From Phycisphaerales bacterium (GTDB taxonomy: Bacteria > Planctomycetota > Phycisphaerae > Phycisphaerales > SM1A02): a stretch of DNA of 49,182 bases. Positions 39,674 to 48,723 of this stretch are shown one piece after another. The stretch covers positions 1 to 49,182 of the forward strand of contig JAKVBX010000006.1 of NCBI GenBank assembly GCA_022446795.1, read 5' to 3'. The translations under genes and the position numbers were made by a program. Position 1 is the first letter of the stretch. Each line of letters opens with the position of its first letter. Below the pieces are notes generated by a model. The model was given only the letters and a program-made list of their open reading frames with translations, ran no database searches and was not told the origin of the DNA.

Positions 39674-40866
39674 GGCCAGGGCATCCAGGTGACTTCGGTC
39701 CCGGCGGTGATCGCATCGGCGCCAGCCGCCAGGTCAACCAGTCCAATGGTGCCGGCGGCGTGGGCCAGGTCACCGGAGCCCTGCCACGTCGGAACATGCA
39801 GGTGTCCCTCGGAATCACGCGTGACTGGTCGGAAGCGTCGCCGTCGTGCATTGCGGGCGGCATCACTGCCAAGGACACCACGTGTCCAGGGCAGTTGCGG
39901 TGGGGCCCCCTGCAGCATCAGGAACAACGGCCAGGCGAACAGGCAGGCGGTGCACAGGGCGGACACCGGGTTGCCCGGCAGGGACAGGATCGGTCGTTCC
40001 TCGCCGACAGCGCCGATCGACGCCACCTGGATGGGGCGGCCGGGTTGGATCGCGGCGCCCCGGAGCACGATGGACGCGTCCATGGCATCGATGGCATCAC
40101 GAAAGGCATCACGAGCACCGGCACTGATTCCGCCGATGGTCACGATCACGTCGCTCGTGGCGTTCTGCAGGACGTCACGCGTGTGATCCGGATCATCCGG
40201 CAGCAGCGCGGACTCGACGACCCGGGCGCCCATGCGAGCCAGCAGATCAGTCACCATCGGCAGGTTGCTGTTGCGGACCTGGTGGGGCTCTGGCAGGACC
40301 TCGATCGGAATGATCTCATCCCCGGAAGAGAGAATCGTCACCGTGGGTTGTGTCCTCACAACGACCGTCGATTGACCCACGGCAGCGGCCAGTCCGATCT
40401 CCGCGGCGCCCAGTCGGGTTCCCTCGTGAACCAGTTCGGCGCCCTCGGCAGCATCGCTGCCTCGCCGGTGAATGGACTGGCCCGGCACCGGGTGCTCATG
40501 AAAGGTGACGGGGTCCCCCCGGTCGGTCCACTCGTGAGGGACCACGGCATCGAGTGATGCCGGGACCGGCGCGCCGGTGGCGATTCCGATGCAGGAGCCC
40601 TCGGGGACATCCGGCATCGAGGGATCACCGGCGGCAATGAAGCCCACGCTGGGCAGCGGTGTTCCGGCGTCCAGGTCGGCAGTGCGAAGGGCATAGCCAT
40701 CCATGGCGGCCCGATCGAAGGGAGGCAGGTCACGGTCAGCGGTGATCGTCCCGGCCAGGATGCGATCACTCGCCTGGTCCAGGCAGATTCGTTCGGTACT
40801 GGTGGGATGCCAGGGACCGTTGCACAGCGCGGCCAGGGCCTCGGGATAGTCCGGCAGGGGTGCCAT
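39670..40866 (-). CDS. moeA: Molybdopterin molybdotransferase MoeA
   Basis: 398 residues. It inserts molybdate into adenylylated molybdopterin. The conserved N-terminal PPFDRAAMDGYA, the TGAPVPASLDAVV segment, SSGDEI, GGISAGARD and LPGNPVSA loops are all present, in the family's order. A TAGGGT box lies 9 nt before the ATG, with no Shine-Dalgarno, so it is transcribed apart from the pseudopilin gene ending 28 nt upstream. Coupled to moaD downstream. Confidence 0.95.
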   Translation of the reverse strand: MAPLPDYPEALAALCNGPWHPTSTERICLDQASDRILAGTITADRDLPPFDRAAMDGYALRTADLDAGTPLPSVGFIAAGDPSMPDVPEGSCIGIATGAPVPASLDAVVPHEWTDRGDPVTFHEHPVPGQSIHRRGSDAAEGAELVHEGTRLGAAEIGLAAAVGQSTVVVRTQPTVTILSSGDEIIPIEVLPEPHQVRNSNLPMVTDLLARMGARVVESALLPDDPDHTRDVLQNATSDVIVTIGGISAGARDAFRDAIDAMDASIVLRGAAIQPGRPIQVASIGAVGEERPILSLPGNPVSALCTACLFAWPLFLMLQGAPPQLPWTRGVLGSDAARNARRRRFRPVTRDSEGHLHVPTWQGSGDLAHAAGTIGLVDLAAGADAITAGTEVTWMPWP

Positions 40867-40875
40867 CGGGGTCCC

Positions 40876-40881
40876 ACCCTA
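40876..40881 (-). promoter_or_regulatory. -10 box of a leaderless promoter (moeA)
   Basis: On the minus strand TAGGGT lies 9 nt before the ATG at 40866, between the pseudopilin stop and moeA. Confidence 0.45.
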
Positions 40882-40894
40882 CTCGCAAAGTCAA

Positions 40895-41713
40895 TCAGCG
40901 GGGGTCGTAGCGGGCGGCATCATCGGAGAGGAATCCGTTGCGTGGCCAGTCCATTGCGGACGTCATCCAATCGGGCAGTTCATCGAAGTGTTGCCCCTGG
41001 AAGGGGGTCGCGGAACGCTCCACGTGGCCGTCGATGCAGGCGAATGTCGTCGAGCCGGCGTAGTGGAATCCCTGGCATCCGGCATAGGCCGTGGACGCAT
41101 CCTGTGGAGAGGCATTCACCGGAGATCGCATGAACTTGTTGGCCCCGTTCCGCCAACTGCCTACGCCGAACAGGGCCGTCGTTCCGCTCCGTCGGCACTG
41201 GGCCAGCGTGAGCGAGACCCCGCCGTCGAGGTTGTCCTTCTCGACCAGGAAGTCCCAACTGCCACCAGGTTGTCCCCAGGGCAGTCGGCCCTCGGCGGCA
41301 ATGAACGCCACGTTGTAGTTGTATCCAGTGAACGGATCACCTTCCCAGTTCGATGGCCCGGTGAACCCGGGGCACTGCAGAACCTCGCCGGGATGATCCG
41401 TGTAGGTCCACAGCAGGCCAGGGACCACGGTTCCATCGGGTTGGCGCCAGTAGTCCCATGCCCGGACGTCGCCGCTGTTGGCATCATCATTGGTGCCATG
41501 CAGCAACGCTGGTGGGAAGTGGCCGCGATGGTGGGTGGCGTACACGATCGCCGCCCGGGCCATGACCCGGAGGTTGCTTCGACAACGGGTCTGGCGAGCG
41601 TGGTCGTCGAGATGGCCGAGCGCGGGCACCAGTCCACCGATGAGCAGGGCGATGATCGCGATCACGACCACAAGTTCGATGAGGCTGAAGCCACGGGTGG
41701 ATCGGTTGGTCAC
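40895..41713 (-). CDS. Type II pseudopilin-like protein (H-X9-DG family-like)
   Basis: 272 residues. GFSLIELVVVIAIIALL at 8-24 is the class III signal: prepilin peptidase would cut after G8, leaving F1 and the conserved E5. The C-terminal domain has FHYAGSTTFACIDGHVE, close to the H-X9-DG motif of planctomycete prepilin-like proteins, with one extra residue between His and Asp-Gly. The GTG start at 41713 overlaps the upstream TGA as GTGA and has AAGGAG 8 nt before it; a GTG at 41722 is less well placed. It is the second gene of the cobalamin-riboswitch operon. Confidence 0.87.
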   Translation of the reverse strand: MTNRSTRGFSLIELVVVIAIIALLIGGLVPALGHLDDHARQTRCRSNLRVMARAAIVYATHHRGHFPPALLHGTNDDANSGDVRAWDYWRQPDGTVVPGLLWTYTDHPGEVLQCPGFTGPSNWEGDPFTGYNYNVAFIAAEGRLPWGQPGGSWDFLVEKDNLDGGVSLTLAQCRRSGTTALFGVGSWRNGANKFMRSPVNASPQDASTAYAGCQGFHYAGSTTFACIDGHVERSATPFQGQHFDELPDWMTSAMDWPRNGFLSDDAARYDPR

Positions 41714-42627
41714 GAGCTCCACTCCTTCAGCAGGGACAGCAGGTCGTTGACATCCACGGTGCCATCCTCGTTCACATCACCAGGGTCACCCGGGTCGACC
41801 GGACCCCAGGCCTCCAGCATGAGGAGCAGGTCATTGACGCCGACGGTGCCGTCGCCATCAAGATCGGCGGCCAGTCGCGGAGGGATGTCGACGATGGCAT
41901 CGATCTCGGGCGTGAGCAGTGCGTCTACTGCGACATCGATCCGGACGAACCGCACCTGGTCGATCGACACCGAGGCCAGGTCGATGCCGACACCTCCGGC
42001 CGATTGCCCATAGGCGGATAGCACGTCTTCCCAGCCTGCACCGACCAGGTCGGCCCAGTCCAGTGCAGGATCCATCGGCATCAGCGGATCGGCGGCGTCC
42101 TGTCCGGGCTCCACGGCGTAGGGGTCGACGTCGCGCCACGCGAGCGTCGGCCAGGCGTGGTCGGCAAGGCAATCCGGCACGGACATCCAGGTGATCCCGT
42201 CCACGCTCAGCGAGATGTCACCACCATCGGCCCCGAAGAGACCAGCGACGACCCCGGCGGGATAGGCACCGTCAATGAAGCCCGCGTTGCCGAAGATGAC
42301 CAGGTCGATGCCGAAGGGATTGTCTGGGTGATCTTCGATCGGTTCGTCAAAGGCCAACACGAGGTGACCCCCGGCGCCAATGGAAACCAGTTCGACCGGC
42401 GTCCAGGCCGGCTGGAACGGTGAGACGACACCTGGGTCGACGCCCTCGCCGGAGTATTGCTCCGGTGGGCCAAGGGTGGTCGCGGGGTTGTCATAGCCCG
42501 GCGCGCCACCGATGCCTGGGTCATGGGAAATGACCTCGTCAGCCCAGGGGTCGGGGACGCCCGAGGCTGCTGGGCCAGCCAGCGCCGCGATCGCTGTGGT
42601 CAGGACAAACGTGTTCAAGGCCTTCAT
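41710..42627 (-). CDS. Exported dockerin-tailed protein under B12 riboswitch control
   Basis: 305 residues. A signal peptide (cleavage near 22) is followed by a beta-rich domain of about 220 residues with PGYDNPATTLGPP, IGAGGHLVLAFDEPI and FGIDLVIFGNAGFID, a pattern I have seen only as 'cell surface protein'. The final 55 residues are a dockerin-like pair (DLDGDGTVGVNDLL, DVNEDGTVDVNDLL). Start 42627 is supported by AAGGAGGG 10 nt upstream; the longer frame runs into the riboswitch. A complete cobalamin riboswitch lies in its leader, so expression should fall when B12 is plentiful. A role in B12 capture at the surface is inferred from this. Confidence 0.85.
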   Translation of the reverse strand: MKALNTFVLTTAIAALAGPAASGVPDPWADEVISHDPGIGGAPGYDNPATTLGPPEQYSGEGVDPGVVSPFQPAWTPVELVSIGAGGHLVLAFDEPIEDHPDNPFGIDLVIFGNAGFIDGAYPAGVVAGLFGADGGDISLSVDGITWMSVPDCLADHAWPTLAWRDVDPYAVEPGQDAADPLMPMDPALDWADLVGAGWEDVLSAYGQSAGGVGIDLASVSIDQVRFVRIDVAVDALLTPEIDAIVDIPPRLAADLDGDGTVGVNDLLLMLEAWGPVDPGDPGDVNEDGTVDVNDLLSLLKEWSS

Positions 42628-42784
42628 GGCCGCTGCACCCTCCTTGGGCCCCGATGCGCGCGGGGCGGACTCGCTGGGCGGTCCCGGGCGGGGGTGGCAG
42701 GGGAGCAGGCGGCGAGCACACCACCTTCGTGGAGGCTCGATGCCCAATACCCGTTTACGGTCCCGCGCGGGCTCGGACAAATCA

Positions 42785-42987
42785 GGCGAGGGCAGGTCTT
42801 CCGGCTCCGGGCAGCGTGCCAGCCTTCCCACCCGAGTCGGGCAGTGGCGATTTGGCACGGTGCGGGTCCTGCGATCGAGGTCCCGCGTATCCCGTTACGG
42901 CGGCGCGTCCGCGGCGGCTTTTCACCGCCTTCCCTCAGGATGGTCGAGGCGGGGTCCGGTCTTGGACCCTTCGTCGACACCCTCGCC
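42785..42987 (-). promoter_or_regulatory. Cobalamin riboswitch aptamer
   Basis: On the minus strand the hallmark elements of the cobalamin riboswitch occur in order. P1 is GGCGAGGG (42980-42987) paired with CCCTCGCC (42785-42792). Then come a GGGTCC/GGACCC hairpin, the core GGGAAGGCGGTGAAAAGCC, the GCGGACGCGCC segment, the GCCACTG box and the B12 box AGCCGGAAGACCTGCC. The 158-nt segment from here to the ATG has no T-run after a hairpin, so control is probably at translation. Confidence 0.95.
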
Positions 42988-42993
42988 GGGGGG

Positions 42994-42999
42994 AGTATA
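42994..42999 (-). promoter_or_regulatory. -10 box of the B12-riboswitch operon
   Basis: TATACT lies 6 nt before the first base of the riboswitch P1 stem, so transcription would start at the aptamer itself. No TTG-type -35 is visible at the right distance. The further stretch to 43186 holds nothing that I recognise. Confidence 0.6.
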
Positions 43000-43186
43000 T
43001 CCCCCCCTGGGACACCCTTGGGACTGATGAGGGCAGCAGGGGCGGATCAGGGGTGGCGGATGGCGGTCGCAGAGCCCGATATCGAGGGCCGATTCACGGG
43101 TTCAAGCGGGTGCGGTCGGTCGTGGTGGAGCCGCCCCGAGCAGGGCCCTGAATCGGGCCTGGAGGCCACGAAACGGGGGTGGTTCA

Positions 43187-43216
43187 TTGACACTGCAAGT
43201 GGCTCCGGGATAGCAT
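43187..43216 (+). promoter_or_regulatory. Promoter of the HEAT-repeat protein gene
   Basis: A consensus TTGACA (43187-43192), an 18-nt spacer and TAGCAT (43211-43216). The leader is about 80 nt. Confidence 0.7.
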
Positions 43217-43301
43217 CGCCGGACTCCCCGGAGGTCGTTGTCAGGCCTGTCCGTTGTCACCACTGACCAATCGAGTTGTGAACGCTCGAGGAGCGCTCTT
43301 G

Positions 43302-45470
43302 ATGGGCATCATTTCCCCGATTCGGAACCTGAGTCTGCAACTGGTCGCCATCCTTCTGGTGGTGCTTTCGAGCACCGTCCCGGCGGCTGCGCAGGAGAAT
43401 GATCCCGCGACCAACCTCGAGGACTTCGTCCACTACGCCCTCGTCGCGAACGTGCAGATGGCCGAGGCACACGCCCAGGCACTGCTCAACAGCGTCACCG
43501 ACGAACAACTGGCGGAACTCGTGGACGACCAGCCAGCGCTTCGTGATCGGCTGGCCCGGGCCCTGGACTGGGGCCGACGCGTTCCCGAGATGGAACAGAC
43601 CGTCAGTGAACTGGCCCATCGCATCGAGGCCGGCCGGCTGGCCCTGGGGCACAGCCCCAAGCGGATCGCCGAGGCCATCAAGATGCTCGGGGGAACCAAC
43701 CGTGATCAATTGGTCGCCCGCGGGCGACTGGTGGCGGCCGGTGAATACGCCGTGCCGGATCTCATCCAGGTAATCGCCGACGACAAGACGGACGAACGCG
43801 TTCGCTGGAATGCTGAGCAGATCGTCCAGGAAATCGGCCGGGAGGCCGTGACCCCGGTCACCGTCGCCATTCCGCGTGTCGGCCCGGAAGACCAGCGTCG
43901 ACTGATCGAGATCCTTGATCGAATCGGCTATCTGCACGCGGCGCCTGCCCTGGCGGATGTTGCCGCGGACGAGTCCAACCCATCATCGACTCGCGAGGCG
44001 GCTCGCCGGGCCCTGGATCGCCTGGGTGTTTCACCCGACGCGTCCTCGGGCGAACTGTATTCCGAACTCTCTCGGATGTACTTTGACGAGCGTGACGAGT
44101 TGATCGCCCGTCCCCTGAATTCCGTGAACAACATCTGGGTCTGGGATGATCATGGCGGGTTGATGACCCAGCCGGTTCCCACGCGGCTGTATGCCCCGAT
44201 CATGGCGATGCGGTCCGCTCAGCATGCCCTCAGCCATGAGCCCTCCGACCAGTCCGCCCTGGCGATCTACGTGGCGTCCAACCTTCGCCGCGAGAATCGT
44301 CTCAATGGTCAGGAAGATCCGTACTTCGGAGACATGACCTACTCCCCGCAGTTCCATGCGACCGTGCACGGACCTGGCATCGGCCAGGACGTCCTGGTGC
44401 TGGGACTCGACAGTGGTGACACCCCGTTGGTCCGCGACGCCCTGTCCGGCCTCGCGGCGACATCGGGTCAGTCCAACCTGTTCGGCCGATACGCCGGGCG
44501 GGAACCGTTGGTAGACGCCCTCCAGTACCCCGATCGTCGTGTGCAGTTCGACTCGGCCCTCATTCTGGCCCGCGCCCTGCCCGATCAGCCGTTCGCGGCA
44601 TCCAACCGCGTGATCCCGCTGCTGGCTTCGGCCGTGCGGACCGGTGGTGAGGAGTACGCGATCGTCGTCGCCAATTCGCCCGAGGATCGTGAAGTTGCCT
44701 TCAAGCGACTGGAGTCCATGGGCTTCACCGTCGTGGGCAGCGATCGATCGGTCGCTCGCCTCGCCGATGCCATCAGCCAGGCCCCGGGCATCGACCTGGC
44801 CTACGTGCAGCCTGGCACCATGGCTGGCGCCGAATCCACGCTCGAGGCCATGCGGACGACTTCCGGCACGGTCAACACGCCGGTTCTCTTCGCCGTTCCC
44901 ACGGTGGATCTTCCTGCGTACCACACGCAGTTCGATCGCGACGTCCGCGTCGGTCTGATGCGAGCGGGTGCCTCCGATCAGGCGGTCACCGCCTCCGTTG
45001 ATTCCCTGCTCAAGGATGCTGCTGGCGGCCGGATGACCGGTGTCGATGCTGACATCTACGCCATCGAGTCCCTGGATGCCTTGAAGGGGATCGCGACGGT
45101 GCGACCAAAGGCCTATTCCATCGCCGATGCCGAGCCGGCCTTGATCGAGGCCCTCGCGGAGCGGCAGGACGCGAGTCGACTGATGGTCGCCGAGATCCTG
45201 GCGCACATCGATTCGCCCGATGCCCAGCGAGCCATCTTCAATGCGGCGTTGTCCTCCACGGCGGGGGACGACCGCGTACCTCTCCTGGACTACACGGCGG
45301 CGTCCATCCGTCGGTTCGGTGATCATGCGACGGACGCCCAGGCCGCGGAACTGAAGCAGATGATTGCTTCGGCCACCGGGGAAGAGGCTGATGCCGCAGC
45401 CCGCGTCATGGGTGCCCTGAACCGTCCGGATACACACGTCAGTCACCTGTCCGCGGGATCGGGGTCCTGA
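43302..45470 (+). CDS. Exported HEAT-repeat protein
   Basis: 722 residues. Start 43302 gives a signal peptide (cleavage after AAAQ, near 30) and has GGAG 8 nt upstream; a TTG at 43254 would add 16 residues. Residues about 130-260 carry HEAT-like helical repeats (VPDLIQVIADDKTDERVRWNA, AAPALADVAADES...). Later HEAT-like helices appear near 360-460 and 620-700. Between them, about 465-560, an alpha/beta segment (FTVVGSDRSVARLADAI...TPVLFAVPT) resembles a degenerate receiver/Rossmann fold without clear phosphoacceptor residues. Such proteins act as scaffolds; the partner is unknown. tRNA-Thr follows 15 nt later. Confidence 0.78.
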   Translation: MGIISPIRNLSLQLVAILLVVLSSTVPAAAQENDPATNLEDFVHYALVANVQMAEAHAQALLNSVTDEQLAELVDDQPALRDRLARALDWGRRVPEMEQTVSELAHRIEAGRLALGHSPKRIAEAIKMLGGTNRDQLVARGRLVAAGEYAVPDLIQVIADDKTDERVRWNAEQIVQEIGREAVTPVTVAIPRVGPEDQRRLIEILDRIGYLHAAPALADVAADESNPSSTREAARRALDRLGVSPDASSGELYSELSRMYFDERDELIARPLNSVNNIWVWDDHGGLMTQPVPTRLYAPIMAMRSAQHALSHEPSDQSALAIYVASNLRRENRLNGQEDPYFGDMTYSPQFHATVHGPGIGQDVLVLGLDSGDTPLVRDALSGLAATSGQSNLFGRYAGREPLVDALQYPDRRVQFDSALILARALPDQPFAASNRVIPLLASAVRTGGEEYAIVVANSPEDREVAFKRLESMGFTVVGSDRSVARLADAISQAPGIDLAYVQPGTMAGAESTLEAMRTTSGTVNTPVLFAVPTVDLPAYHTQFDRDVRVGLMRAGASDQAVTASVDSLLKDAAGGRMTGVDADIYAIESLDALKGIATVRPKAYSIADAEPALIEALAERQDASRLMVAEILAHIDSPDAQRAIFNAALSSTAGDDRVPLLDYTAASIRRFGDHATDAQAAELKQMIASATGEEADAAARVMGALNRPDTHVSHLSAGSGS

Positions 45471-45679: not shown

Positions 45680-46009
45680 ATGACTGCAGTCAACCGGTCC
45701 TATCTCAAGTGGTTGATCATCCTCGGGATCGTCGAGGGGATCTCCACCCTTGTCCTGTTCTTCGTCGCCATGCCCCTGAAGTACTACGGCGGGCAGCCGA
45801 TGGCCGTCACGATTGCCGGTGGGATCCACGGTGTGCTCTTCATCGCCCTGGTCGCGATGTTCATCGTTGGGGCGAGCGCCGTGCCGCTGTCGACCCGCAT
45901 GGTGTGGTACGGGATCATCGGCGCGATCGTGCCCTTCGGACCGTTCGTGGTCGACGTGCCGCTCTACCGGATGCTCAAGGCGGCCGATCAGGGACAGGCT
46001 TCTCCGTAG
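45680..46009 (+). CDS. DUF3817-family membrane protein
   Basis: 109 residues with three predicted transmembrane helices. The conserved pattern EGISTLVLFFVAMPLKYYGGQP...GGIHGVLF identifies DUF3817, a family of small integral membrane proteins of unknown function often seen near transporters or as a domain of fusion proteins. Start 45680 is chosen because the frame upstream runs through the tRNA terminator and TACAAT lies 8 nt before the ATG. Its 3' end overlaps the convergent cytochrome gene by 22 nt. Confidence 0.88.
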   Translation: MTAVNRSYLKWLIILGIVEGISTLVLFFVAMPLKYYGGQPMAVTIAGGIHGVLFIALVAMFIVGASAVPLSTRMVWYGIIGAIVPFGPFVVDVPLYRMLKAADQGQASP

Positions 46010-48723
46010 TGGGCCAGCAGCACCAGGACATCATCTGAGTCGACCGTACCGTCGCCGTCGATGTCACCCGGCCCCGGGCTGCCCCAGGCATCCAGGAGAA
46101 CCAGGATGTCATTGACGCCGGCCACGCCGTCACCATCAAGATCCCACGGGCATTCCGGGAGGTCGTCGTCGTGGAAGATGGGATCGTCGAACGGGTAGGC
46201 GACGTAGGCGAGCAGTTCTGCCCGCTCGGTCGCGGACATGGCCAGTACCGCCTGGCGTGACGACTCGGCTTCACCGCCATGCCAGAGAATGGCCTCCATG
46301 AGCGAGCGGGCGCGGCCGTCATGCAGGAAGTTCGGTGTCGTCCCACCCGACGTGGGATCTTCACAGGTCTCCGGCAGGCCCAGCGCATGCTGGACGTAGG
46401 CGAGCGCCCACAGCGGAGGTGTCCGCCACTCACTTCCGGAAGCCTCGAAGTGCGGGCGGTTGTCAGCCAGGCCCGGACCCATGTCATGCAGCAGCAGATC
46501 GGTGAACGGCTCGATGGTGATGTCGTGATAGGCCGCAACGGGGTGACTTGATCCGGTCTGCAGCCGAGGCGTGTGACACGCCTGGCAGTTGGCGGCCTTG
46601 AAGAGATGCAGGCCGGCGATGGCCATCGGGTCGTCGTAATTGCCCCGTGGCGGCAGGGCCAGGCCCTGGATATAGGCGACGACATCGTTGAGTTCCTGGG
46701 TCGAGAGTTCCGGGAGCATGTCGCCTGGTTCGCAGTCCTCCTGCAACGGACCACAGTCATGCGTGGGCCGGGCCTCGGTCGTGATGCCCAGGTCACGTTG
46801 GAAGGCCTCGGCCGTCTGTTGCTGCAGGTTGGGTTGGTTGGCTTTCCAACCGAATCGTCCCAGCACGGTCGATCGGGATTGCGGATCCCAGACCTGGTTG
46901 GCTCGGCCGGAGATGCCATCCCCGTCCTGGTCGTCGGGATCCTCCAGTGACAGGATGGTCGCCGCGCTGATGGCTTCGAGCAGTCCGAGGCCCGGCAGCA
47001 TGGGCGCAATGCGGGGAGAGAACTCGGCCAGTCCGCCGTAGCCCGGGGTGCCGTCGGTGTCGGGGAGATTCGTTCCCAGAGAGCCATAGGCCATGTCGAG
47101 GAAGTGGTACGACGGCTTCCGCAGGGTGTATGGCGTGCCGTCGTTGAAGGTGCCGGTGATCTCCTCGTAGGTCACCTGGAGCCGCCCCTCGATCGTGACC
47201 TCGCCCTCGGCGGACCCGTCGACCTGGTTGCCGTAGAGCGGATGGGGGATCGGTTCTCCGAAAGCGCCCTGTCCCGGGATGCTCGTGTGCGCAATGAGCC
47301 CCACGAGATCCTGGCCAGGCTGTGGCGTGGGCGCGCGACCATCCATGACATGGCATTGGATGCAGGATGCGGCGGCATACCGCGGCCCGAGCATGTCGGG
47401 TTGGAACGCCGGACTGCTGACGATCGGTTGGCCGATGGGACCCGAGCAGCAGTCGAAGTGGGTGCTGAAGTTCAACAGATCTGATGTCTCGAAGTCCGTC
47501 TCGAAGATGACCTTGCCCTCCACGAACGCATTGAGGTCCTGCAGGGCCAGGGAGGGAACGTGCTGGGCGAAGCCGAAGCGGGGGCTGTACACGTGCGCGA
47601 TCGTGGCCCCTTCGGCGGCCGTCATCCTGGGGTTGGACTCATGGGGGCCGAAGGTCCCCATGCCGACCCGGTAGTAGAAGAACTCGGAGTAGTACTGCAG
47701 TCCTGGTGTCGGCAGTTCAATGAAGGTCAGGTCGAAATCGATGATCGTCCCCGGGGTCACATCCTCGATCGCATGCGTGAAGTGGTTCTGTCCACCGGAC
47801 ATGATCTGGTTGATCAGGGTTTCCGGTCGCGAGCAGGTGCCGGTGAACGGGTCATTCCAGGTGAAGTAGCGGAAGTCCACGCGGTTGACGGGGAGGCTGT
47901 CGTCGACCACCAGGTCGACATCGACTCGATTTCCCCAGTCGACGAGGGTCAGTTCGTAGGTCTTGCCGACGCCGTACTCCTCGACGTAGTTGTCGAATCG
48001 CCACTCGTTGGGATGCCGGTGTCGGAATCGCCCGGTCTGTCGGGTGACGATGGGCCAGTCCGGTTCCGGGAGGACCTCGCCCAGGATGCGGCTGAATCGA
48101 CCGGTGTCCTGTGGTTGCAGGCCGATCTGCTGGGCGAACCAGTACTCGATGGTCTGCCCGATCGACGCATCGGGAATGATCGCTTCCCACGTCCAGGGTT
48201 CGACCTGCAGGAGTGGTATCGACAGGATGTCGGAACCCTGGAGGCGGTAGCGGAAGGTGACGGCCGTGGTTTCGCCCATGTTGTACGCGTTGGCACCCGA
48301 CTCGAATCGAACCAGGATGTCCTCGGCCTGCGTGACGAATTCATGACGCGAGCCGCGAGGCGGTGGTGGGGTGACATCATCGCGTTGGAACGCGAGACAG
48401 TCTTCCGTGACCAGGAACTCGTGTTCCGGGAACTGGTACTGCTGCGGATTCTGAATGATCAGGTGAAAGGAGAACGGGTCGCCGGGGGCGACCCCGGTGA
48501 CCACGTGACTGAACAGGCCGGGCGCCTCCTGGGTCATGACCCACCCGCCGTTGTTCCCCGGCGGTGTCGGGAAGATGATGGCGAGGGTGACGTCCGTTTC
48601 AACGTTGAGCGTGATCCGGACCCCGTCGTCCGTCGAGCACACGGTACCGCTGTAGTCGGGCATCGCGGCGGCAGCGGCAGCGGTCATCGCCAGGCTGCCA
48701 CCCAGCATGGTGAGGGTATGCAT
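45988..48723 (-). CDS. Exported di-heme oxidoreductase (DHOR family) with dockerin-like tail
   Basis: 911 residues. The start at 48723 gives a signal peptide (Ala-rich core, cleavage near 20) and has GGAG 8 nt upstream. Residues about 20-410 are beta-rich, with Trp- and Asp-rich strands like carbohydrate-binding or fibronectin-type modules. From about 430 the DHOR/DUF1111 region carries two c-type heme sites, CIQCH (454-458) and CQACH (713-717), with the segment GFGWKANQPNLQQQTAEAFQRD between them. The C-terminal 55 residues are a paired dockerin-like tail (DLDGDGVAGVNDIL, DIDGDGTVDSDDVL). It is probably a periplasmic or surface redox enzyme; the substrate is unknown. Confidence 0.9.
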   Translation of the reverse strand: MHTLTMLGGSLAMTAAAAAAMPDYSGTVCSTDDGVRITLNVETDVTLAIIFPTPPGNNGGWVMTQEAPGLFSHVVTGVAPGDPFSFHLIIQNPQQYQFPEHEFLVTEDCLAFQRDDVTPPPPRGSRHEFVTQAEDILVRFESGANAYNMGETTAVTFRYRLQGSDILSIPLLQVEPWTWEAIIPDASIGQTIEYWFAQQIGLQPQDTGRFSRILGEVLPEPDWPIVTRQTGRFRHRHPNEWRFDNYVEEYGVGKTYELTLVDWGNRVDVDLVVDDSLPVNRVDFRYFTWNDPFTGTCSRPETLINQIMSGGQNHFTHAIEDVTPGTIIDFDLTFIELPTPGLQYYSEFFYYRVGMGTFGPHESNPRMTAAEGATIAHVYSPRFGFAQHVPSLALQDLNAFVEGKVIFETDFETSDLLNFSTHFDCCSGPIGQPIVSSPAFQPDMLGPRYAAASCIQCHVMDGRAPTPQPGQDLVGLIAHTSIPGQGAFGEPIPHPLYGNQVDGSAEGEVTIEGRLQVTYEEITGTFNDGTPYTLRKPSYHFLDMAYGSLGTNLPDTDGTPGYGGLAEFSPRIAPMLPGLGLLEAISAATILSLEDPDDQDGDGISGRANQVWDPQSRSTVLGRFGWKANQPNLQQQTAEAFQRDLGITTEARPTHDCGPLQEDCEPGDMLPELSTQELNDVVAYIQGLALPPRGNYDDPMAIAGLHLFKAANCQACHTPRLQTGSSHPVAAYHDITIEPFTDLLLHDMGPGLADNRPHFEASGSEWRTPPLWALAYVQHALGLPETCEDPTSGGTTPNFLHDGRARSLMEAILWHGGEAESSRQAVLAMSATERAELLAYVAYPFDDPIFHDDDLPECPWDLDGDGVAGVNDILVLLDAWGSPGPGDIDGDGTVDSDDVLVLLAHYGEACP

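Follow-up and report, generated by a model that had tools for sequence, protein, structure and literature searches.

What does a cobalamin riboswitch control when neither of the genes behind it encodes a BtuB-type receptor, and how might vitamin B12 cross an outer membrane without BtuB? Both questions are raised by a 49,182-nucleotide stretch of a Phycisphaerales bacterium genome (contig JAKVBX010000006.1, hereafter the window; contig C56 within a source genome of 3.5 Mb that is 96% complete), in which a riboswitch precedes genes for an exported protein and a type IV prepilin-like protein. We consider it likely that this pair serves to capture cobamides under repression by B12, varying the Bacteroides scheme in that it has no TonB receptor. 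In the passages of the literature that describe it, BtuH has so far been an accessory to BtuB in gut Bacteroidetes; here, throughout a planctomycete family, the riboswitch has as its conserved target a predicted BtuH-type fold, whose gene is coupled to that of a pseudopilin, and many of the genomes have no detected TonB receptor. The locus names candidate genes for the outer membrane question. What is new here is a variant of riboswitch-controlled B12 scavenging. We found no paper joining a cobalamin riboswitch with Planctomycetes, none joining BtuH with Planctomycetes, and, judged by titles, none on a pairing of a cobalamin riboswitch with a pilin.

A complete cobalamin riboswitch precedes the gene pair

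A preliminary description of the locus had claimed a complete riboswitch with an 8-bp P1 helix and had proposed a covariance search for RF00174. This search returned a full-length match over model positions 1 to 189 (66.2 bits versus a gathering score of 31.5; E of 3e-14 for the window; Table 1), confirming the claim. The core boxes GCCACTG and AGCCGGAAGACCTGCC, the 8-bp P1 helix, and the TATACT hexamer were all at the sites given earlier. The description had also proposed a -10 element; TATACT indeed lies 6 nucleotides from P1, but a consensus scan of positions 40700 to 43300 revealed no minus-strand promoter and no -35 hexamer. Because TATACT lacks an accompanying -35 element, the riboswitch promoter is only half supported. 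Two candidate expression platforms were rejected: the same scan contained no intrinsic terminator, and sequestration of the Shine-Dalgarno sequence was not indicated by leader folding (z of -0.2, with 81 of 200 shuffled sequences equally stable).

The exported protein may start at the ATG at 42627, behind AAGGAGGG. A Sec-type signal peptide can be read from its N-terminus; the main domain behind it spans about 224 residues, and an EF-hand pair forms the C-terminus. For the second gene, either GTG 41722 or the GTG within the GTGA overlap at positions 41713 to 41710 could serve as the start, which agrees with the proposed coupling of the two genes through this overlap. Its product matched models of the N-terminal prepilin cleavage and methylation motif above cut-off (PF07963, 31.0 versus 21.2; TIGR02532, 25.2 versus 16.3), confirming it as prepilin-like.

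The exported domain has a predicted BtuH-like fold

No Pfam or NCBIfam model matched the main domain of the exported protein above cut-off. An AlphaFold2 model built from 47 homologues had a mean predicted local distance difference test (pLDDT) score of 93.6 and a predicted template modeling (pTM) score of 0.85. In a Foldseek search of the PDB, the sole match at an E of ≤0.001 was 8BLW_B, BtuG1 with a BtuH domain (6.4e-6). Re-alignment (VIA) of 991 chains placed 7BIZ_A, which is BtuH2 with bound B12, at rank 1 (Z of 13.4, 2.7 Å over 141 residues, 21% identity; aligned part, residues 315 to 592) and 8BLW_B at rank 2 (residues 388 to 660; Z of 12.9, 3.5 Å, 151 residues). PAPP-A and sugar-binding modules followed at Z values of up to 10.8. 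Because Z values near 10 are frequent in the 991-chain list, the margin counts more than the Z value itself. According to the model, the exported domain has the same fold as residues 315 to 592 of 7BIZ.

Sequence intermediates point in the same direction. Alignment A2 (47 sequences) includes seven relatives from families f2 to f5 of the order, which by themselves constitute alignment A5. By sequence, A5 matched 8BLW_B (2.9e-31) and 7BIZ_A (9.4e-23), with the next match at 0.33. Searches with tblastn in turn tied these seven relatives to the window protein (E from 3.7e-11 for the best, L052, to 4.8e-6), and a profile of the family set without them matched A5 over its full length (probability of 99.7, E of 9e-26). 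Three loci of family f4 (L052, L053, and L060) also have the same divergent HEAT-repeat neighbor as the window. For a second subfamily (alignment A4; 28 of 32 references, with L197, L198, and L200 left out and L061 repeating L189), the best PDB match was again 8BLW_B (0.0055), with the hemophore HasA next (0.046).

We then compared B12 contacts. The BtuH2 numbering of PMC8941943 equals the chain index plus 100, and Gln333, Asn399, Phe401, His476, Tyr510, Trp511, Trp577, and Leu578 all matched the expected residues. Asn399, a contact of the B12 phosphate according to passages of PMC8941943, corresponds to Asn114 of the window protein and was invariant in all 47 homologues; Gln333 was retained in six of the seven A5 members. 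The exported protein thus resembles BtuH and BtuG1 of Bacteroides thetaiotaomicron (7BIZ and 8BLW; PMC8941943 and PMC10404256) in its exported B12-binding fold, the riboswitch ahead, and the retained Asn399. It differs in its dockerin-like tail, in having no lipobox cysteine or PKD domain that we could find, in its prepilin partner, and in an operon without btuB, the gene with which more than 80% of gut BtuH homologues share an operon according to passages of PMC8941943. Together, these data suggest that the exported protein is a distant relative of BtuH that probably works like it. Differences in operon, anchoring, and several contact residues keep us from filing it as BtuH.

The tail had been called dockerin-like from the outset, and this label holds by structure but not by sequence: the predicted fold matched 2y3n_B (Z of 9.1, 1.6 Å over 56 residues), whereas the sequence scored under the cut-offs of PF00404 (19.5 versus 22.9) and NF041540 (21.5 versus 29). 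At least 38 matches to the exported protein occurred in its own genome, those listed being mostly to the tail, which looks like a general module of the source genome outside B12 logic. The idea that a dockerin signals cellulosome-like or B12-specific function was rejected, since tails of this sort abound in the source genome and one relative (L077) has a PEP-CTERM-like end in place of the tail.

The nearest sequence family of the main domain was the Leptospira lipoprotein family LIC_13355, which was matched weakly by 8 of the 47 homologues (best E of 5e-6, far below its 120-bit cut-off). These weak matches possibly reflect a distant BtuH-like domain in LIC_13355. A B12 link of LIC_13355 itself was rejected, as the passages of the literature on this family contain no such statement.

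Riboswitch, exported protein, and prepilin are conserved together

We examined conservation of the locus in 61 genomes (the source genome and 60 relatives, including members of its own family and of families f2 to f6; 150 of 277 candidates were scored). The tabulation of riboswitches proposed in the preliminary description gave an RF00174 match above cut-off, upstream and on the same strand, for 35 of 40 homologues, counting near-full-length matches among those listed and leaving out shorter ones from f3 to f6. The distance from riboswitch to matched stretch was 70 to 332 nucleotides, save in G035 (868) and G040 (940). A set of genome records bearing titles, mostly Phycisphaerales, Phycisphaerae, or Planctomycetota metagenome assemblies, had the riboswitch at or above cut-off in 74 of 80 loci, these being the best 80 of 194 confirmed relatives; three of the six loci without a match have fewer than 400 nucleotides of upstream sequence. 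Several of these contigs are apparently identical to contigs of the 61-genome set, and because of this overlap the two counts are not independent. Four records titled Caulobacteraceae, Limnohabitans, Bacteroidia, and Leptolyngbya (L107, L108, L135, and L164) carry the planctomycete locus and are probably mis-binned contigs.

Five of the 40 homologues lacked an above-cut-off riboswitch. One (G041) sits where its contig ends; for G031 the RF00174 match is subthreshold (25.5 bits) and accompanied by box motifs, G032 has box motifs only, and G010 and G027 have no convincing riboswitch trace. Relatives lacking the riboswitch and also having a different gene context, which the preliminary description had named as evidence against its reading, were not encountered, since G010, G027, G031, and G032 all retain the prepilin and HEAT-repeat neighbors.

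All 34 family genomes that have a near-full-length homologue also have the prepilin gene behind it (E of 1.4e-24 or better), as do 71 of the 75 titled loci whose sequence extends far enough. Three further family genomes, 72 to 80% complete, had no near-full-length homologue. We also inspected 18 riboswitch loci in other families of the order, two of which run off the contig. Of the remaining 16, 15 have a prepilin-like gene downstream of the riboswitch, as judged from the N-terminal motif by eye or, for L063 and L066, by tblastn; the exception is G048 (L058), where a BtuB-like frame containing a TonB plug domain takes this place. The genes between riboswitch and prepilin vary, encoding a BtuH-like, a propeller-like, or a small exported protein or a DUF4465 fusion. 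The prepilin persists despite this variation, which makes the pseudopilin the partner that changes least in the loci of these families.

Propeller-like exported proteins, identified by eye, adjoin the BtuH-like gene in several of these families, before it in L052, L053, L063, L065, and L068 and behind it in L067. This arrangement is reminiscent of the BtuG-BtuH fusion. A sequence relation of the L053 propeller-like neighbor to BtuG was rejected, as it had no match to solved BtuG.

Other riboswitch products resemble B12 carriers and DUF4465 proteins

Besides the window riboswitch, the source genome yielded a single cobalamin riboswitch (C67:728-919; L001:728-919), which precedes an exported protein of 193 residues. 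Its AlphaFold model (pLDDT of 88.2) matched the beta-domain of vertebrate B12 carriers, with transcobalamin, intrinsic factor, and haptocorrin filling the first 14 rows (Z of 12.3 to 11.1), followed by 3u7z (10.8) and then a drop to 5.9. Foldseek returned nothing at an E of ≤0.001 (best, 0.012), and Pfam found little beyond sorting signals in this protein family. Alignment A6 holds 26 of 34 sequences (L228, L229, and L252 are repeats, L233 has an insert, and L246, L248, L249, and L253 matched the sorting signal only). Relatives of the 193-residue protein follow riboswitches in several families. The models of the two riboswitch targets, one transcobalamin-like and one BtuH-like, thus both point to B12 binders, even though the fold searches were blind to B12. 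The models thereby suggest a likely function for an exported domain without a Pfam model and for a second family.

Transcobalamin-like SLBB domains (PMC1796856) share the fold of the model of this second product, which is distinct from the window protein. The 2007 paper had already placed the clade in planctomycetes, and passages of it mention neither a riboswitch link nor a binding test for bacterial members.

DUF4465 (BtuJ; PF14717) offers another comparison. According to passages of PMC13398666 and PMC12751083, these proteins are exported jelly-roll B12 binders, with riboswitch-controlled loci in B. thetaiotaomicron; eight of them bind B12, including one from Mucisphaera calidilacus, a member of the Phycisphaerales (PMC13398666). 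In G049 (L061:1701-3854, plus strand), a 718-residue protein behind a cobalamin riboswitch combines an N-terminal A4-type BtuH-like domain, and thus a relative of the window domain, with dockerin-like repeats and a C-terminal DUF4465 domain (3.5e-33). This was the only 1 of the 61 genomes with a DUF4465 match. Membership of the window protein itself in DUF4465 was rejected, as neither it nor the source genome had a match to PF14717.

The source genome appears to need external B12 and lacks detectable TonB plugs

The source genome encodes three B12-binding domains, one within a 1,243-residue frame that begins like what we take to be a cobalamin-dependent methionine synthase, and a search for CobS found no match in it. 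On these grounds, the genome seems to need external B12. It also encodes three BtuF-like domains, one of them beside a presumed FecCD-type permease and ATPase, and three secretins, one of them within about 6 kb of two frames that we presume to carry prepilin motifs.

The preliminary description had stated that neither product of the operon is BtuB-type, and we agree: BtuB in the operon was rejected, as there is no btuB beside the riboswitch and no match to the TonB plug domain in the operon or anywhere in the genome. The plug search included control genomes such as those of Escherichia coli, Caulobacter, and Bacteroides. The plug domain went undetected in every genome of the genus (6 of 6) and of family f2 (6 of 6). 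In the own family, 11 of 37 genomes had a match and 26 had none, and matches were obtained for all 13 genomes of families f3 to f5 and for 3 of the 5 of f6. The unit of riboswitch, binder, and pseudopilin persists in genomes without detected plugs.

A model for cobamide capture and its alternatives

The idea of a surface apparatus for catching cobalamin, put forward in the preliminary description, is supported by the BtuH-type fold, the riboswitch link, and the apparent need for external B12, with binding as a prediction. Repression by B12 is the usual direction for the cobalamin riboswitch class, and by analogy the window riboswitch would act likewise: when B12 is scarce, the empty riboswitch would permit expression of both genes, and when B12 is plentiful, both would be shut off. 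The first product would be exported, and its BtuH-type domain would retain cobamides, either on the cell surface or within the periplasm, with the dockerin-like tail as a putative anchoring module. The prepilin-like protein would be processed and would either become part of a pseudopilus, of the type II secretion or type IV pilus kind, or anchor to one. Captured cobamide could then pass to a BtuFCD-like ATP-binding cassette transporter and on to methionine synthase. B12 binding and surface location of the exported protein, like every role of the pseudopilin as an anchor, secretion part, or import fiber, are steps that we infer.

Several observations weigh against this model. The Foldseek superposition on 8BLW_B is poor overall (TMq of 0.33, root mean square deviation of 14.8), and the fold is common to carbohydrate-binding modules (Z of about 9 to 10.8). 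The BtuH link runs through the model and sequence intermediates: a profile of the window subfamily (alignment A3, the 19 closer sequences of the 47 in A2) finds no BtuH, and neither does A2 with its seven intermediates. Contacts of BtuH2 through Gln333 and the Trp577-Leu578 loop are absent in the window family, in which the Trp577 loop is shortened, and His476, Tyr510, and Trp511 cannot be placed there, as this loop region has no confident alignment. These missing contacts weaken, but do not remove, the predicted B12 binding. In addition, leader folding gives no clear expression platform, and in four family genomes (two of which show box motifs) the gene lies behind a below-cut-off riboswitch or none.

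If the exported domain does not bind B12, it might instead serve in carbohydrate binding or adhesion, its expression being controlled by B12 as a cue to habitat or algal partners. The shared fold of F5/8-type carbohydrate-binding modules, the loss of most corrin contacts of BtuH2, and the weak matches to LIC_13355, a family with a member reported to bind laminin and plasminogen in passages of PMC11891782, are all compatible with this idea. We nevertheless regard it as quite improbable, as two B12-binding domains outrank the sugar-binding ones, the sequence intermediates match only 8BLW_B and 7BIZ_A, and both the DUF4465 fusion in G049 and the B12-carrier-like model of the second riboswitch product point elsewhere. 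It is also unlikely that a BtuB-type receptor exists but was missed, through genome incompleteness or a diverged plug, such that the pair would be an accessory as in Bacteroides. The 96% completeness of the genome leaves room for such a gene, and plugs in families f3 to f6 and in part of the own family, together with the BtuB-like frame behind the G048 riboswitch, show that relatives have them; however, no plug was found throughout the genus or family f2, including a single-contig genome given as 99% complete.

Pseudopilins normally serve type II secretion, and a possible alternative, which we hold to be somewhat short of an even chance, is that the one encoded here acts outside capture and import as a dedicated secretion pseudopilin that exports or places the binder through a type II-like machine. 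The three secretins, one of them near the two prepilin-motif frames, and retention of the prepilin whatever gene precedes it are in keeping with this alternative; the binder, however, bears an ordinary Sec-type signal peptide. A pseudopilus route for capture would fit the constant prepilin, and a secretion role explains the gene order equally well. Extending the capture model, planctomycetes that lost all TonB receptors might take up B12 independently of TonB, with the binder on or beside a B12-regulated pseudopilus whose machine moves cobamides across the outer membrane, as competence pili do with DNA. We offer this route as a speculation with rather low odds. Planctomycete crateriform structures have pilus-like fibers that bind dextran, with some particles apparently internalized (PMC5394234); these occur in Planctopirus and Gemmata, outside the window group, and passages of that paper contain no mention of a pilin, B12, or TonB that we could find.

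Features of the locus and neighboring genes

Table 1. Positions of features at the riboswitch locus and of the second riboswitch product
Feature	Position	Strand	Basis or remark
Cobalamin riboswitch aptamer, RF00174	42774..42999	-	Covariance model, full length
TATACT, possible -10 element	42994..42999	-	Sequence; 6 nucleotides from P1
P1 helix, 5' strand	42980..42987	-	Read from sequence; pairs with 42785-42792
P1 helix, 3' strand	42785..42792	-	Read from sequence
Likely ribosome-binding site AAGGAGGG of exported protein	42638..42645	-	Read from sequence
Exported protein, 305 amino acids	41710..42627	-	Open reading frame; AlphaFold model; listed frame begins further upstream
BtuH-like beta-sandwich domain (predicted), residues 25-248, with invariant Asn114	41884..42555	-	Structure matches, alignment
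Dockerin-like EF-hand pair, residues 250-305	41713..41880	-	Structure match 2y3n_B
Type IV prepilin-like protein	40895..41722	-	PF07963 above cut-off
HEAT-repeat protein, conserved divergent neighbor outside the operon	43254..45470	+	PF13646; locus marker in relatives
Exported protein, 193 amino acids, behind second riboswitch	L001:108-686 (contig C67)	-	AlphaFold model

Beyond the HEAT-repeat gene, positions 45988 to 48720 of the window (minus strand) encode a di-haem oxidoreductase (PF06537, 7.4e-69) with a dockerin_GC-like tail below cut-off.

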